A stretch of DNA of 30,231 bases from a virus: positions 1 to 30,231 of the IMG/VR virus record IMGVR_UViG_3300031951_000847. One strand, 5' to 3'. The notes below the pieces were generated by a model, which saw nothing but the letters and a program-made list of their open reading frames with translations, was not told the DNA's origin and did no database searches. Both the position numbers and the translations under genes were made by a program. Positions 12,643 through 30,231 of this stretch are shown here, in pieces. Each line of letters starts with the position of its first letter. The stretch's first letter is position 1.

Positions 12643-12721
12643 CCTCTGCGGTGTAGGGTGTTTTCGCAAGCCATACCAGCCACTTGAGAATGGCTGATAC
12701 GATTTGCTCGATGACGTTCAT
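12542..12721 (-). CDS. small helical protein overlapping lipoprotein gene (59 aa)
   Basis: The frame starts in an ATGA overlap with the preceding holin-like gene and has AAGG five bases upstream. The protein begins MNVIEQIVSAILKWLVWLAK, an amphipathic to hydrophobic helix that could bind or cross the membrane. A charged helix follows (DPELKKKLLDRIADSERKLL). This is the shape of a short inner-membrane spanin, but the hydrophobic segment contains a lysine and is weaker than in typical Rz. The other possibility is a membrane-associated holin partner. It overlaps the lipoprotein gene in another frame, so both reading frames are constrained. Confidence 0.6.
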   Translation of the reverse strand: MNVIEQIVSAILKWLVWLAKTPYTAEDAKPDPELKKKLLDRIADSERKLLNKSGDGAPR

Positions 12722-12900
12722 TCAGCCTTCTTCTTATCAGCGTCCTTGGCCATGATGAGTCCGAATCCAATGGTCACGGCGGTGATGGTGGCTGCGAGGT
12801 CCATGTTGGTAGACGGGTCTCCATCGAAGAGCGCTTTGAGTGCGCCTCCGATTGCGACCATGATTGCGCCGACACCTGCGAGAGTGGTTTTCCAGTTCAT
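12718..12900 (-). CDS. two-span holin-like membrane protein (60 aa)
   Basis: Start ATG at 12898-12900 overlaps the stop of the upstream small gene (ATGA), which fixes it over a longer upstream extension lacking membrane character. Residues 7-25 (LAGVGAIMVAIGGALKALF) and 35-51 (LAATITAVTIGFGLIMA) are two hydrophobic spans joined by a polar DGDPSTNMD loop. The C-terminus is strongly charged (KDADKKKAE). Size, two spans and a charged tail fit class II holins. No family was proven. It lies directly before the possible spanin pair. Confidence 0.65.
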   Translation of the reverse strand: MNWKTTLAGVGAIMVAIGGALKALFDGDPSTNMDLAATITAVTIGFGLIMAKDADKKKAE

Positions 12901-13067
12901 TTCTTGAGGGCTTTGTAGAGTCCGATTGCTGCGGCTATAAACGCCAACAGAGCGGCCCCGAATCGGAACCACTCTGTTAACTGAGGAAGCAGTGATACCG
13001 CACCAGCAGTAGCGGCGGTTGCAAGTGAAAGTCCAAGTCCGCTGCTACTGTTGGTATCGTTTGTCAT
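12897..13067 (-). CDS. second small two-span, holin-like protein (56 aa)
   Basis: The frame begins in an ATGA overlap with the upstream 50-residue gene and ends overlapping the ATG of the next. After a polar N-terminus (MTNDTNSSS) come GLGLSLATAATAGAVSLLPQ (moderately hydrophobic) and FGAALLAFIAAAIGLYKAL (clearly membrane-spanning), then KK at the end. Two tiny adjacent membrane genes could be holin and antiholin, or two subunits of one pore. This is inferred from size, topology and clustering. Confidence 0.6.
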   Translation of the reverse strand: MTNDTNSSSGLGLSLATAATAGAVSLLPQLTEWFRFGAALLAFIAAAIGLYKALKK

Positions 13068-22746: not shown

Positions 22747-23193
22747 CTATTTAGACTGCCCTCCGAATGCTCCTAGTAGACTACCGCTAATTGATAATTC
22801 CTTGCCACCTTTGCCAGTATGTTCTAGTGAAGCCCTTGCAACGTAGCCACGGGTTCTCTCTAACAACCAAGCAGCACCCTGCCATCCATTGGATGCATCC
22901 AGAACCCTTCCTTGCATTTCAACCTCTCCGGTCACACGAGCAGACTCTAATTCCATCTTAAAGTCTGGATGGCGGGACAAGTAAGCGCCCCAACCCGCAG
23001 GGTTCCCACAAGAGAACCCGCACAGAACAGCAACCCGGTCTTCAGGCATTCCAAGGTAGGCAGCACGCAAAGCTGTTTTTTTCTGTTCGGAAGAAATGGA
23101 TTTTTCGGGTCTTCCTATCTTCCCCCCTTTCCCCTTCTTTCCCGTTTTCCCTTCCTTCACCTGGACGATTTCCATGGGTTCACTTTGCGCCAC
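22747..23193 (-). CDS. terminase small subunit-like DNA-binding protein (148 aa)
   Basis: It lies directly upstream of the large terminase. The N-terminus is basic and flexible (EGKTGKKGKGGKIGRPEKS), followed by a helical segment KKTALRAAYLGMPEDRVAVL that reads as a helix-turn-helix, and MELESARVTGEVEMQGRVLD as an oligomerisation helix. This architecture fits terminase small subunits, which recognise viral DNA and form rings. The frame begins at GTG 23191-23193; ATG at 23173-23175 (MEIVQVKEG) is an alternative. The gene starts the leftward late block and faces away from the rightward mini-operon. Confidence 0.7.
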   Translation of the reverse strand: MAQSEPMEIVQVKEGKTGKKGKGGKIGRPEKSISSEQKKTALRAAYLGMPEDRVAVLCGFSCGNPAGWGAYLSRHPDFKMELESARVTGEVEMQGRVLDASNGWQGAAWLLERTRGYVARASLEHTGKGGKELSISGSLLGAFGGQSK

Positions 23194-23274
23194 AAAGCAT
23201 GCCTAGGAATTATTTTTCCCTTTTCTATCGTTTTCCGTTGCAAAGCATCGCATCCCATTGCAATCTACTCCCGT

Positions 23275-23291
23275 GAGCCGATGATCGGCTC
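23275..23291. promoter_or_regulatory. perfect palindrome upstream of rightward mini-operon
   Basis: GAGCCGA and TCGGCTC flank a TGA centre (7-bp arms, 17 bases in all). It ends 11 bases before the first ATG of the rightward cluster and lies in the divergent gap with the terminase genes. Position suits an operator or a hairpin controlling translation. Neither flanking promoter could be assigned with confidence. Confidence 0.45.
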
Positions 23292-23302
23292 CGTCAAACA
23301 CC

Positions 23303-23413
23303 ATGAAAAAATCCCACAAACTCCGTGCGTTCCTAGCGTTTATCGCGCTTAACCTCCTCCTCCTCCCGATCATTTGGCTTCTGGCCGATGCTTTGATTGG
23401 AGGTTCCCTGTGA
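23303..23413 (+). CDS. tiny single-span membrane protein (36 aa)
   Basis: The product begins MKKSHKLRAFLAFIALNLLL and continues LPIIWLLADALIGGSL. A basic start, a 20-residue hydrophobic span and a short tail predict one transmembrane helix with the N-terminus inside. It overlaps the next gene by four bases (GTGA), so the two are probably made together. The Shine-Dalgarno is weak, and the palindrome lies just upstream. Function unknown. Confidence 0.5.
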   Translation: MKKSHKLRAFLAFIALNLLLLPIIWLLADALIGGSL

Positions 23414-24102
23414 GCAACGGCTTTGTAATCCACGAAGACCAGCACCGTGTCATCATCGCGACGGGCTTCTCTAAAGCTTCGGACAACCGGAAAACCGGAG
23501 ACATGATTCAAATCTGGATCCTTGTGAAGCTTGTGGACCCCGTCCGCGCGATCAAGGAAGGTTTGGATCGTCTCATTTGCGGAAATTGCGTCCACCGTGG
23601 CAACGGCGACGGCTCCGGTCGTTCGTGTTATGTAAATGCTGGCCAAGCTCCCCTTGGCATTTATCGCGCTTGGAAAGCGGGTAAATATCCCACACTCCAA
23701 TTTATGGATTGCTTCGCAGGTAGGAAAGTCCGCTTCGGCGCATATGGTGATCCTACTCATCTCCCTTTGAGCCTTGCGCTTGCCATTGCGGGTGTCGCTT
23801 CTGGTCACACGGGATACACCCACCAATGGCGAAAGCCTAGTTTGCAAGGGTGGCGTTCCATTCTTATGGCATCCGTGGACACCACCGCCGAACTCCTCAT
23901 CGCCCGTTCCATGGGATGGTCCACTTTCCGAGTAACACCCGACACCGATCACCATAGTTTCGAGACCCTTTGCGCTTCGGAACGCAATGGAACCCCGTGT
24001 TCCGTTTGCTTGGGTTGCCCCGGTTCACGAAACGGAATTCAATCGGTGTGGATCCCGGCCCACGGGACCGGCAAACGTCACTTCATCGAAGCCCAAGCTT
24101 GA
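23410..24102 (+). CDS. cysteine-rich conserved protein, DUF7227/GP88-like (230 aa)
   Basis: The GTG start is supported by GGAGG five bases upstream and by overlap with the previous stop. The pattern is: GDMIQIWILVKLVDPVRAIK, then ICGNCVHRGNGDGSGRSCYV (Cys57, 60, 73), FGAYGDPTHLPLSLALAIAG, SGHTGYTHQW, ASVDTTAELLIARSMGWSTF, and a C-terminal cluster CSVCLGCPGSR (Cys197, 200, 203). I recall this order from a phage and plasmid family that I believe is catalogued as DUF7227, related to mycobacteriophage GP88. Members have no established activity. Eight cysteines suggest two metal sites, one near each end. A longer ATG start at 23374 overlaps the membrane gene and lacks the ribosome site. Confidence 0.7.
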   Translation: MSNGFVIHEDQHRVIIATGFSKASDNRKTGDMIQIWILVKLVDPVRAIKEGLDRLICGNCVHRGNGDGSGRSCYVNAGQAPLGIYRAWKAGKYPTLQFMDCFAGRKVRFGAYGDPTHLPLSLALAIAGVASGHTGYTHQWRKPSLQGWRSILMASVDTTAELLIARSMGWSTFRVTPDTDHHSFETLCASERNGTPCSVCLGCPGSRNGIQSVWIPAHGTGKRHFIEAQA

Positions 24103-24118
24103 ATTTCCCGGTGAGTCC

Positions 24119-24436
24119 ATGGGGGAAACCCCGTGGATTCCACGGGCAATTGATGCCCTTCAAACTATGCAATCCATTCAAACCAAATACCTTCCCCCCA
24201 CGGACACAAAGGGGGCACGCATTAAAGCAACCTGTGAAAGGGGAACCCGTACAATCCCGTACCCCTATGAATTGTCCGGTGATTCGGTCCATCGGGAAGC
24301 CGCCCTTCAATTGATTGAGCGATTCGTCGCCGAAGATTGGAAGGAGCGGGCCACCCCACCGTCACAGAACCCGTGGAAGCGGGCTTTTGTCACCGGTTCC
24401 CTTCCCGATGGAACTATGGCCCACGTCTTCCTTTGA
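24119..24436 (+). CDS. small conserved mobile-element protein of unknown function (105 aa)
   Basis: ATG at 24119 has GGTGAG a few bases upstream. The core reads SIQTKYLPPTDTKGARIKAT, then IPYPYELSGDSVHREAALQL and VTGSLPDGTMAHVF. The 'IxTKYLPxTxxxGaRIkA... iPYphelsGd.vH..Aa..l... G.lpdG..hVF' pattern is one I recall from short proteins on plasmids and phages. No function is known to me. It follows the DUF7227-like gene by 16 bases. A second ATG at 24167, nearer the conserved core, is a possible alternative start. Confidence 0.6.
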   Translation: MGETPWIPRAIDALQTMQSIQTKYLPPTDTKGARIKATCERGTRTIPYPYELSGDSVHREAALQLIERFVAEDWKERATPPSQNPWKRAFVTGSLPDGTMAHVFL

Positions 24437-24440
24437 ACAT

Positions 24441-24698
24441 ATGAAATCCGCTTTCAATCTCATTCAACGGGACGCATTCAAGTTTTCCGTGGGCCGTGCG
24501 ATTTTTTGCTGCCACCCAGACTGCGGGGTGATTCTAGATTATCGGCGGGCTGTGGAACTATCCGCTTGCAAGGGGGACAAGTACGTTTCGGTCAAAGTGT
24601 TCTGCGCCGATTGCGCCGACCGAGTCCGCCCGATAATTGAGGAGAAGCTTGTCCCCCTTGGAATGCGTCTCGAGGTTATCGATGGAAGGAAGCTATGA
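24441..24698 (+). CDS. small zinc-finger-like protein (85 aa)
   Basis: ATG four bases after the preceding stop gives MKSAFNLIQRDAFKFSVGRA. Cysteines at 23, 24, 28, 43, 55 and 58 are arranged CCHPDC...C...FCADC, compatible with a treble-clef or ribbon zinc fold. The C-terminus (RPIIEEKLVPLGMRLEVIDG) is a helix then strand. A longer frame start at 24315 lies inside the previous gene and was rejected. Function unknown. Confidence 0.55.
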   Translation: MKSAFNLIQRDAFKFSVGRAIFCCHPDCGVILDYRRAVELSACKGDKYVSVKVFCADCADRVRPIIEEKLVPLGMRLEVIDGRKL

Positions 24699-24826
24699 AA
24701 GTCTATTGGAAGGCATTTTACGGTCGAAGCGAGTACACGTTCCAAGGCCGCAACGCCAAGCGCGACGCGTATCGACTGGCCAAGCGGTTCGGCGGGCGCG
24801 TGGTCCGTGAGAAAGGTAAGCTGTGA
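24695..24826 (+). CDS. very small basic protein (43 aa)
   Basis: The start overlaps the previous stop (ATGA) and has AAGGA about five bases upstream. The product, MKVYWKAFYGRSEYTFQGRN then AKRDAYRLAKRFGGRVVREK, has a beta start and a strongly basic helix, which suits nucleic-acid binding. Too small for a family call. Confidence 0.5.
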   Translation: MKVYWKAFYGRSEYTFQGRNAKRDAYRLAKRFGGRVVREKGKL

Positions 24827-24912
24827 AACCCCTTCTCCGAGTCCTAGGCTACCTTGGGCTGTGCTTGCTGTTTACCCTCCTATTGATCCTCTCCGCCCTC
24901 GCGGGTAACTAA
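24823..24912 (+). CDS. tiny single-span membrane protein (29 aa)
   Basis: GTG overlaps the previous stop (GTGA) and has AAGG five bases upstream. The product, MKPLLRVLGYLGLCLLFTLL then LILSALAGN, is almost wholly hydrophobic after a basic start: one predicted membrane helix. It is the last gene before the terminator, mirroring the 36-residue membrane protein at the operon start. Confidence 0.5.
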   Translation: MKPLLRVLGYLGLCLLFTLLLILSALAGN

Positions 24913-24930
24913 CCCAAGCCAATCGTCACG

Positions 24931-24958
24931 CCCCGTAGGTTCCCCCCTACGGGGTTTT
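24931..24958 (+). terminator. intrinsic terminator of the rightward mini-operon
   Basis: CCCCGTAGG pairs exactly with CCTACGGGG (9 bp, six-base loop) and is followed by TTTT, then CCTTT. It begins 18 bases after the last stop, in the expected orientation. Confidence 0.9.
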
Positions 24959-25079: not shown

Positions 25080-25247
25080 ATGTCCCACCCCGTTACATCC
25101 CCTGCGACCCCGCCGGTATCATCCCGAAATCTGTTTCGGGATCATGCGATCTCATGGTGCGGTATTCCAGATCCTTCATATGCCATACGGAATTCGGAAT
25201 TCGGGAACCAGAATTCGGAAACCGACCCGGTTACAATGGTGCGGTAG
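25080..25247 (+). CDS. weak candidate small gene (55 aa)
   Basis: ATG at 25080 is preceded by AAGG about ten bases upstream and gives MSHPVTSPATPPVSSRNLFR, ending in DPVTMVR. It spans the hairpin and GAATTCGG repeats, which would encode RNSEFGNQNSE. No homologous pattern is recognised. It may be a chance frame across a regulatory region. Confidence 0.2.
   Translation: MSHPVTSPATPPVSSRNLFRDHAISWCGIPDPSYAIRNSEFGNQNSETDPVTMVR
25121..25142. repeat. perfect 9-bp inverted repeat with TCTG loop
   Basis: ATCCCGAAA and TTTCGGGAT flank TCTG. No T-run follows on either strand, so an operator or origin hairpin is more likely than a terminator. Confidence 0.5.
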
Positions 25248-25278: not shown

Positions 25279-26031
25279 ATGCTTTGTCGCGGCATGGGTG
25301 TGAAGAGAGTGATGGCTATTGGTTGCAGTCATGGCAACCGAGCGAACAAGGACGCGCTGGCGGCGGTTCTGTTGTTCCGGGAGCGGTTCAAGCCGGATGA
25401 GGTGATCCATCTGGGCGATGCCTATGATCTCGCCTCGCTCCGTGCTGGATCGCTGTCCAACCCTGACGATTCGGACCATGCGGACGACTATCTCGACGAC
25501 ATCCAGGAGGGAGCAAAGTTCCTAAACGAGTTGCGGCCCACAGTCTTCACGATGGGTAACCATGATGAGCGGGCCAAGAAGTACCTGAACCATCACAACG
25601 CGGTGGTGCGGGGGTTCGCGGAGGCGGTATGGGAGCGGATGCTGGCACCGATCCAGAAGCACTGCCACACATTCATCCAGTACAACGACGCTATGGACCG
25701 TTCCTTCTACAAGCTTGGTGGTTACAAGTGGGGGCATGGGATCTTGTATGGTGAGAACTTCATCCGGGACTCGGCGGAGACGTTTGGGAACTGCGTGATT
25801 GCCCATGCCCATCGAGCTGGCCAATCAACTGGGCGGACGCAATCGTCCCCTATTGGTTTCTGCGTAGGTACATTAGCGAATATCCCGTCTATGGATTACG
25901 CGAGCAAACGACGTTCAACGCTGGCATGGTCCCACGGTATTGTATTTGGAGAGTATACAATTAACAGCGCACAACTATATCTACATCAATGGCCACAAAA
26001 CGAGAAGAACTGGGTTCTGCCGAGCTTCTGA
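25279..26031 (+). CDS. metallophosphoesterase (up to 250 aa)
   Basis: The calcineurin-like phosphoesterase motifs are in order: GCSHGN (15-20), HLGDAYD (44-50), GNHDER (93-98), WGHG (151-154) and AHAHRAGQS (175-183). The first motif normally reads DxH; here the Asp position is Cys16, while His18 remains. Motifs II to V keep their metal ligands. A phage subfamily with 'GCxHG' in this place is one I recall, so the change may be natural. Substrate unknown; phosphodiesters or 2',3'-cyclic nucleotides are possible. Start options are ATG 25279, ATG 25294 and GTG 25300; none has a strong ribosome site. It overlaps the next gene by 43 bases. Confidence 0.8.
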   Translation: MLCRGMGVKRVMAIGCSHGNRANKDALAAVLLFRERFKPDEVIHLGDAYDLASLRAGSLSNPDDSDHADDYLDDIQEGAKFLNELRPTVFTMGNHDERAKKYLNHHNAVVRGFAEAVWERMLAPIQKHCHTFIQYNDAMDRSFYKLGGYKWGHGILYGENFIRDSAETFGNCVIAHAHRAGQSTGRTQSSPIGFCVGTLANIPSMDYASKRRSTLAWSHGIVFGEYTINSAQLYLHQWPQNEKNWVLPSF

Positions 26032-26264
26032 GGAAGCTGAGGCTGGCAATATCGAACCAAGCTGAAGAAGTGCCGGAGGGCTGGAAGACGGCGGCTCAAT
26101 GGTCCCAGGAGTGGAATGTGACCCATAACGCGGCGGGGATTGTTCTGGGCAAATCCACCAAGCTTGGGCTGATGGAATGCCGCAAGTTCCGAATCATGTC
26201 CCGGAGCCGTGGGGTCTATCCAACGCCCCATTACCGGTTGATCCCCAATGGCAATGGAAAATAG
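25989..26264 (+). CDS. winged-helix-like DNA-binding protein (91 aa)
   Basis: The protein starts MATKREELGSAELLRKLRLA, a charged helix, then GWKTAAQWSQEWNVTHNAAG as a probable helix-turn-helix and a C-terminal hairpin (MECRKFRIMSRSRGVYPTPH YR) as the wing. I recall this order in small early phage proteins described as winged-helix. The gene overlaps the metallophosphoesterase end by 43 bases and ends before the bidirectional terminator. A regulatory or replication role is inferred. Confidence 0.6.
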   Translation: MATKREELGSAELLRKLRLAISNQAEEVPEGWKTAAQWSQEWNVTHNAAGIVLGKSTKLGLMECRKFRIMSRSRGVYPTPHYRLIPNGNGK

Positions 26265-29546: not shown

Positions 29547-29807
29547 TCAGATTTGTTTGTGGATGATGATTCCATTTCCCTTTGCATCGGTGAGTTCCAC
29601 TGACCGAACGTCTTCCAGTTTGGCCAGTGTCTTCAGCATCTCGATGGGGTCATGGGCTTGTGCTACGCAGGTGAGGTGGATGTCTCCATCTCCGTGGATG
29701 ACCTTGAGGTTGTCTTTGGTTCGATCCCTTAAAACGCGGATGGTCCGCCCCTCGGAGAGACGGACCACCTTGATCGATTCCACTAATGGAAACGAATGTC
29801 TGGTCAT
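29547..29807 (-). CDS. small early protein of unknown function (86 aa)
   Basis: The frame starts in an ATGA overlap with the regulator gene. The sequence SIKVVRLSEGRTIRVLRDRT then HLTCVAQAHDPIEMLKTLAK alternates strand and helix, a small alpha/beta fold. No motif was recognised. Position in the early leftward block suggests regulation or replication support. Confidence 0.5.
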   Translation of the reverse strand: MTRHSFPLVESIKVVRLSEGRTIRVLRDRTKDNLKVIHGDGDIHLTCVAQAHDPIEMLKTLAKLEDVRSVELTDAKGNGIIIHKQI

Positions 29808-30231
29808 ATTAACTTGTTGCAGTGCGGACAGGTTTTGATTTTACGGAATTCGATTGGCTGAATCCCGGCCCACGCACAGAGATCGTGGTAACTTCGCAGC
29901 CCGAAGTTCTTGTACTTGAACGGTCGAACGTCCCCGGACTTGATCATGGTGATGAGTGTCACGGGGTTGTTGACCTTGAGCTGAGTCATCAGCTTGGTAT
30001 TGCGAACGCTGAGTCCGTTGGTCCACAGGTTCTTGGATTCCTCCTGCCTATTGTGAGCTTTGAGGACCTGATGAACACGTTGCTTGGACATCTTGAGGGT
30101 GTCCCCGATGACTTGGTAGGTGAGACCTTGCTTACGGAGTTCGGTGACCTTCTCGATTGATTCTGTTAGTTTCACTTTTGGTTTACGTTTCTTCTTCGTG
30201 GGTGCTGTGACTACCGGAGCGGGAGTTGGGT
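29804..30231 (-). CDS. partial regulator: sigma-region-4-like HTH plus alpha-CTD-like segment
   Basis: The frame stays open to the right edge (PTPAPVVTAPTKKKRKPKVK precedes the first GTG), so the N-terminus is outside the window. Counting from GTG 30175, residues 5-41 (ELRKQGLTYQVIGDTLKMSK, then QRVHQVLKAH) form a helix-turn-helix like sigma region 4. Residues ~54-104 (LSVRNTKLMTQLKVNNPVTL, then KNFGLRSYHDLCAWAG) follow the LSVRxxNxLxxLxI...L...KNFGxkSL pattern of the RNA polymerase alpha C-terminal domain. A terminal CPHC may bind metal. The combination suggests a transcription factor touching RNA polymerase. This is pattern-based inference. Confidence 0.6.
   Translation of the reverse strand, partial: PTPAPVVTAPTKKKRKPKVKLTESIEKVTELRKQGLTYQVIGDTLKMSKQRVHQVLKAHNRQEESKNLWTNGLSVRNTKLMTQLKVNNPVTLITMIKSGDVRPFKYKNFGLRSYHDLCAWAGIQPIEFRKIKTCPHCNKLI

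Follow-up and report, generated by a model that had tools for sequence, protein, structure and literature searches.

A core phage operon of small genes with an exchangeable interior and an intercistronic RNA element that alternates with start-stop overlap

The DNA analyzed here, the 30,231-nucleotide IMG/VR virus record IMGVR_UViG_3300031951_000847 (referred to below as the window), carries six small plus-strand genes, o1 to o6, at positions 23303-24912 of an otherwise minus-strand phage contig, in which the structural genes and the primase are on the minus strand. Comparison with relatives leaves very little doubt that these genes form a conserved core operon with an exchangeable interior, found in a large group of uncultivated tailed phages with genomes of ~37 kb. 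The fixed front of the operon consists of a leader hairpin, a membrane peptide, and o2, a protein of the DUF7227/GP88 superfamily; its fixed back consists of a 29-aa membrane peptide, o6, and a terminator. The main significance of the locus lies in a structured RNA that follows the o2 gene (RNA element 2) and in its exchange with start-stop overlap. It is almost certain that both this element and the leader hairpin (RNA element 1) are real.

The features are listed in Table 1. A preliminary description of the region, made from the letters alone, had pictured an operon with its own terminator inside a leftward phage block, and the strands of the open reading frames and the hairpin after o6 bear this out. 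The plus-strand frames of 36, 230, 85, 43, and 29 codons are present as claimed. The third gene, given as 105 codons, is shortened here to 89 codons, because the relatives begin at the ATG equivalent to position 24167 (MQSIQTKYLPP...); the stretch upstream of it is a folded noncoding RNA. The genes had been said to be mostly linked by GTGA or ATGA, which holds for three of the five junctions, o1/o2 (GTGA), o4/o5 (ATGA), and o5/o6 (GTGA), but not for o2/o3 and o3/o4, where the genes lie 64 nt and 4 nt apart, respectively. As for the good ribosome sites, clear Shine-Dalgarno sequences precede o2 (GGAGG) and o5, that of o6 is weak, and o1, o3, and o4 have none. The Shine-Dalgarno sequence of o2 coincides with the terminal Gly-Gly codons of o1, an arrangement that is usual also in the first-position peptides of the relatives. 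A strict-consensus promoter scan of the window gave no match; in the relatives, aligned by eye, TTGACA or TTGACT, a 17-nt spacer, and [CT][AT][AT][TA][CA]T stand directly 5' of the leader hairpin.

Table 1. Features of the operon and its immediate surroundings in the window
Feature	Position	Strand	Remarks
Small terminase gene	22747-23193	-	Left neighbor, divergent from the operon
Promoter region	23194-23274	+	TTGCAA (23238-23243), 17-nt spacer, CAATCT; putative, sigma70-like
RNA element 1, leader hairpin	23275-23291	+	Ends 11 nt 5' of the o1 ATG
o1, 36-aa single-span membrane peptide	23303-23413	+	
o2, 230-aa DUF7227/GP88-superfamily protein (phrog_2554)	23410-24102	+	GTG start
RNA element 2, intercistronic	24102-24158	+	Helices P1 and P2; alternative helix P3 at 24144-24158
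o3, 89-aa phrog_3199 family protein	24167-24436	+	Profile match 7.5e-18; conserved start
o4, 85-aa protein with four invariant cysteines	24441-24698	+	
o5, 43-aa basic protein	24695-24826	+	
o6, 29-aa single-span membrane peptide (RVLGYL...LSALAGN)	24823-24912	+	GTG start
Terminator-like hairpin and T run	24930-24955	+	Strong; closes the operon
Metallophosphoesterase	25279-26031	+	Further plus-strand segment right of the operon; Pfam 7.5e-9

Searches of IMG/VR with o2 as bait retrieved at least 80 contigs (73 to 100% identity); because of this choice of bait, phages of the group that lack o2 would go unseen. The preliminary description had proposed looking for the same genes together elsewhere, and the operon recurs with the same strand and neighbors in at least 80 contigs. 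Among the matches listed, wherever the contig reaches far enough, o2 stands on the strand opposite to that of its neighbors, a terminase/portal block on one side and a primase on the other, both leftward. The 80 contigs among these matches and the window's own copy make up 81 loci, the counts from which are not independent, because the relatives share descent: 77 contain o6, 34 contain o4, 30 contain o1 (by sequence), 27 contain o3, and 4 contain o5. Among the matches listed, o2 and o6 are 59 to 820 bp apart, and several unrelated small-gene families occupy the space between them. The first position usually belongs to a single-span peptide of 30 to 37 aa, with about four sequence types among the relatives. 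Sequence comparison marks o6 as the most conserved element besides o2. Single-step codon changes in o6 number 92 synonymous and 30 nonsynonymous; corrected for the genetic code, the ratio is about 0.14. The gene is under purifying selection. In the relatives, its start overlaps the preceding stop codon, and a strong hairpin is found within 60 nt 3' of o6 in 74 of 74. In one relative (G010; 37,425 bp), the first 121 nt recur unchanged at the other end, so that this contig probably represents a full genome of about 37.3 kb; none of its inspected open reading frames was recognized as an integrase gene. A relative with 84% identity is carried on a 5-kb contig binned in a Verrucomicrobiota metagenome-assembled genome (MAG). 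Since binning errors are likely, Verrucomicrobiota are not claimed as hosts.

The whole segment had previously been read as a cargo (moron) module, possibly for exclusion, defense, or counter-defense; as a moron, it would be a recent acquisition. It does lie on the opposite strand, has its own terminator, and includes exchangeable small genes. Yet o2 and o6 are present nearly throughout the group sampled (with o2 as bait), the G+C content is that of the genome, and there is no match to a defense family, which makes this interpretation very improbable. Morons are expected to be sporadic among close relatives, whereas o2 and o6 run throughout at least 80 o2-baited relatives; they are expected to deviate in composition, whereas the G+C fraction of the operon is 0.544 versus 0.542 for the remaining genome; and of the promoter and terminator of its own that a moron should have, the terminator is seen and the promoter is deduced from the relatives only. 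With o2 and o6 fixed, the middle variable, and the G+C content as in the genome, the segment is therefore a core operon, and exchange is confined to the genes between o2 and o6. Phage accessory-gene hotspots such as those of P2/P4 (PMC9122126) are similar in that conserved genes flank exchangeable ones. Unlike in these hotspots, the flanks here are the genes with which the operon itself begins and ends, and none of the cassette genes is recognized as a defense gene.

The palindrome that had been flagged 11 bases 5' of the first ATG is perfect, GAGCCGAT-g-ATCGGCTC; apart from it, the two covarying RNA elements had been missed. When each leader was scored at the best of eight offsets, with its own shuffled control, 38 of 52 distinct leaders retained six or seven of the seven pairs, compared to 7.8% of mononucleotide-shuffled leaders scored identically. 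Compensatory changes are found at most of the seven pairs (e.g., GAGCCGA/TCGGCTC, GCTCCAA/TTGGAGC, GAACCGA/TCGGTTC, and CCGGCCA/TGGCCGG). A fixed-offset test was weak (50% paired versus 42% shuffled at k=11), because the distance from the hairpin to the ATG varies by 1 to 2 nt; in most relatives, the hairpin ends 10 to 12 nt before the o1 start. A MAFFT alignment of the bare 17-mers was misaligned and was left out. An RNA hairpin is preferred to a protein-binding DNA operator, which is less probable, as the sequence varies widely and some relatives have G-U pairs. In many relatives, the hairpin lies directly behind the sigma70-like promoter and therefore probably forms the 5' end of the mRNA; it is internal in those relatives in which another gene precedes the membrane peptide.

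RNA element 2 comprises ~62 nt, and the final base of the o2 stop codon is the first of helix P1. In 32 sequences, 99.8% of the cells of an 18-pair structure are paired, compared to 84.8% in shuffles and 30 to 52% in slid versions, over which it is somewhat favored, having been derived from the same alignment. Double changes occur at 10 of the 18 pairs (68 such cells), and the covariation score is 0.465 versus 0.179. In the window, the element folds at -36.8 kcal/mol (z -5.4), and the covariance model matches positions 24097-24169 with 78.5 bits. The sequence of P2 changes freely, and there is hardly any variation in the 3' part of the element, CGGGCAAUUGAYGCCC. As an alternative to P1, the 3' strand of this helix can form helix P3 (GGGC-AAUUGAU-GCCC). 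The two helices are mutually exclusive, suggesting a switch. In four sequences, column 55 is G rather than A, and both the P1 and the P3 partners still pair in all four, once by wobble, with P3 resting on few variable positions. A 15-codon TTG open reading frame inside the element, present in many relatives, was rejected, as its frame is lost where the length of P2 changes.

The element is apparently new and belongs to no catalogued RNA family: Rfam 15 has no family that reaches the gathering score in the window and, at E values of up to 10, nothing credible for RNA element 2. The covariance model finds it in the window and in six of eight near-full-length relatives (on the antisense strand, only weak echoes occur at the same position), and also in a phage-like contig of a MAG (L088); ten other phages and the eight remaining bacterial genomes gave nothing convincing (best, 0.02). 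Scanning IMG/VR for the exact core yielded 105 stretches. Among 75 newly fetched loci with the core motif, 63 have it directly 3' of o2 and two are on truncated contigs of the same group; the remaining ten are unrelated, without structure, and were discarded as chance matches.

RNA element 2 is found in 36 of 57 distinct loci. In 18 of the 21 loci that lack it, the next gene overlaps o2; in the loci that have it, an overlap can be read in at most 4 of 36, and these are TTGA or GTGA readings inside the element (p = 2e-8, a nominal value, as related loci are not independent). The genes that follow it are of at least four families plus a single one: s1 (21), o3-like (13), o4-like (8), s11 (6), and other (1). 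The element therefore goes with o2 rather than with the cassette, and it resembles a second way, besides start-stop overlap, of linking a cassette to o2. The RNA is present where the genes do not overlap and absent where they do; therefore, it probably controls or replaces the coupling to o2 translation, an assignment that we regard as having somewhat better than even chances. As the element precedes several unrelated families and largely replaces start-stop overlap, it also looks like a plug-in adaptor, which would allow new genes to be inserted after a core gene of the phage with their translation still controlled.

The location of this conserved DNA at the border of the fixed o2 and the variable cassette could also be that of a recombination junction for cassette exchange. 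Such a junction seems very unlikely indeed, as there is a single copy per genome and none at the other end of the cassette, G-U pairs occur in many sequences, compensation follows RNA pairing rules, and the element is absent from cassettes joined by overlap.

If RNA element 2 does control or replace coupling, translation of the cassette would be tied to that of o2 either by overlap or by the RNA. The free RNA would contain P1 and P2. A ribosome at the o2 stop codon would cover the 5' strand of P1 and free its 3' strand, which could then fold into P3 shortly before the next start codon. In modeling, P3 appears once 15 to 20 nt at the 5' end are masked. Neither modeled state has the next AUG in a helix, so the model predicts no sign of the effect on translation. 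It can be proposed, as a tentative idea with somewhat less than even odds, that the element represents a new class of RNA switch, in which exclusive helices read out a ribosome finishing o2 and set the translation of the next slotted gene. In a subvariant of this scheme, it may be a riboswitch with a product of o2 catalysis, or an o2 cofactor, as its ligand.

Two further interpretations concern the same structure. The element could be an RNase III-type processing or mRNA-stability hairpin with no switch, being a long, imperfect stem between two genes in which the P2 sequence changes freely. Intercistronic RNase III-type hairpins are found in the T7 early operon at the borders between early genes, likewise next to small uncharacterized genes. 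Unlike these, RNA element 2 starts at a stop codon, its 3' motif is conserved, and it can form an alternative helix. The near-invariance of CGGGCAAUUGAYGCCC, the retention of the P1/P3 alternative, and the absence of the element exactly where the genes overlap, which would not be expected of a mere processing site, render a processing hairpin unlikely. Still less probable is a ligand- or protein-binding regulator of the downstream gene, such as a riboswitch or an operator bound by o2: the element is compact, strongly conserved, capable of alternative helices, and always beside o2, but it matches no Rfam riboswitch, its P2 is the most variable part, there is no conserved pocket-like junction, and the downstream genes differ.

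The o2 protein matches phrog_2554 (E value of 1.3e-61, residues 11 to 227), although it covers only the C-terminal part of this 529-position profile. The relatives in this family come from phages of Mycobacterium, Gordonia, Klebsiella, Microcystis, and Roseobacter (32 to 46% identity); in contrast to those members, an operon that also includes o6 and the RNA is specific to the phage group described here. Homologs were detected by tblastn in 147 records of isolated phages (of the same five hosts and others) and in 15 bacterial assemblies, with phage-like neighbors in both contexts inspected. In one of the bacterial sequences, a deltaproteobacterial MAG (L098:7887-10016), the homolog continues into an open frame of 710 aa, which extends it by a long C-terminal part. 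The residues that are invariant in 50 diverse members are N26, K28, T29, G30, Q34, C57, G58, C60, C73, Y74, V75, R108, G110, Y112, G113, P119, T134, H138, S155, C188, C197, C200, C203, H218, and G219. The AlphaFold model is confident (pLDDT of 92, pTM of 0.88) and barrel-like, with alternating strands and helices, and places several of the invariant residues at or just past strand ends.

The preliminary assignment of o2 to a DUF7227/GP88-like family holds at the level of remote homology, even though the protein itself has no match in Pfam. DUF7227 is matched weakly by 6 of 16 o2 relatives (best, 0.0059; below the Pfam gathering cutoff). In hhalign, o2 and the DUF7227 (PF23872) set align with a probability of 95% (E value of 3.8e-8 for a single comparison), and in BFVD the o2 model retrieves a DUF7227 model (1e-5) and a GP88 model (E value of 0.04). 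DUF7227 shows the same order of motifs, NxKTG, a Cys pair plus C-Y, Y-T/S-H, a Cys cluster, and A-H-G. Similarity to the GP88-like set (PF17338) is confined to 48 columns (67% in hhalign), with no Pfam GP88 match; both have a C-terminal Cys cluster and a final His. Judged by these alignments and models, o2 is a remote relative of DUF7227, with a weaker link to GP88. No link of o2 to DUF5131 (PF07505) was found by hhalign. The GP88 and DUF5131 Pfam models match the same proteins in several bacterial genomes (L139-L164), and their profiles align at 67%, suggesting that DUF5131, GP88, DUF7227, and phrog_2554 constitute one superfamily. A DUF7227 search in 369 genomes of one class gave no match, a result of little informative value, and literature searches on DUF7227, DUF5131, and "gene product 88" returned nothing useful.

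The seven invariant cysteines of the o2 family follow a 3+4 pattern, which suggests two metal sites, and it is fairly likely that o2 is a metal-dependent enzyme. From the sequence pattern and the modeled fold, we infer that it is perhaps an Fe-S barrel enzyme. The radical SAM motif CX3CX2C is absent from o2, its N-terminal cysteines being spaced C57-x2-C60-x12-C73, and no radical SAM structures are among the listed PDB fold matches. PDB searches by sequence, and by fold for o2, returned no relative.

Searches of Pfam, NCBIfam, and PADLOC with all six proteins gave nothing significant; the similarities of o4 to DpdC (PADLOC; best, 0.011) and of o3 to MarR (0.015) were judged to be due to chance. 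With its four cysteines invariant in the alignment and a confident AlphaFold model (pLDDT of 90), o4 is probably a zinc ribbon; a fold search of the PDB with o4 gave no match. For the remaining cassette proteins that were searched, the matches, if any, are to PHROGs of unknown function. In the unrelated Roseobacter phage CRP-5 (L272, 302-1596), a GP88-like protein, gp02, is encoded close to the o3-family protein gp04 at the left end of the genome.

The earlier picture of two membrane peptides placed around the cysteine-rich and probably metal-binding proteins o2 and o4 proved correct, and this arrangement is conserved. The two peptides are single-span with basic N termini, and o6 is very conserved, as might be expected of lysis or superinfection-exclusion peptides in a membrane-acting module. 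This seems rather improbable: a small membrane protein at 12718-12972, beside the tail genes, is by position the more usual holin candidate, and o2 homologs in other phages belong to operons in which no fixed pair of this kind is evident.

The position of the operon and the kind of its genes point to a role in host takeover or counter-defense, a plausible assignment that we hold with less than even confidence. In such a scheme, o2 would be a metal enzyme whose target is a nucleic acid or protein of the host or phage, variable host-interaction factors would be encoded in the cassette, and o1 and o6 would act at the inner membrane. Taken as a whole, the best explanation, for which the chances appear about even, is a core operon that might serve as a host-takeover module with an o2-coupled RNA. 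In Microcystis phage Ma-LMM01, the o2 homolog is gp072, whereas the early genes are gp054-gp063 (PMC5780444), which weakens the case for early expression. The abundant and uncharacterized DUF7227/GP88 phage superfamily gains a testable context in an operon with defined, fixed ends. The 29-aa peptide o6 ranks with the best-conserved parts of the operon, and annotation easily misses genes of its size.

Several further features lie to the right of the operon. Between its terminator and the metallophosphoesterase gene, at 25118-25220, there is a cluster of inverted repeats, ATCATCCCGAAA/TTTCGGGATCAT, together with several GAATTC-centered repeats. A plus-strand gene for a 91-aa protein (25989-26264) overlaps the metallophosphoesterase gene. 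In the region of G010 that corresponds to 25279-26264, there is a C-5 cytosine DNA methylase (3.1e-34), so this looks like a second exchangeable site. At 29804-30175, on the minus strand, a 123-aa protein shows weak matches to HTH_23 and to a sigma70 region 4-like domain (0.004 to 0.005) and is a candidate transcription regulator.
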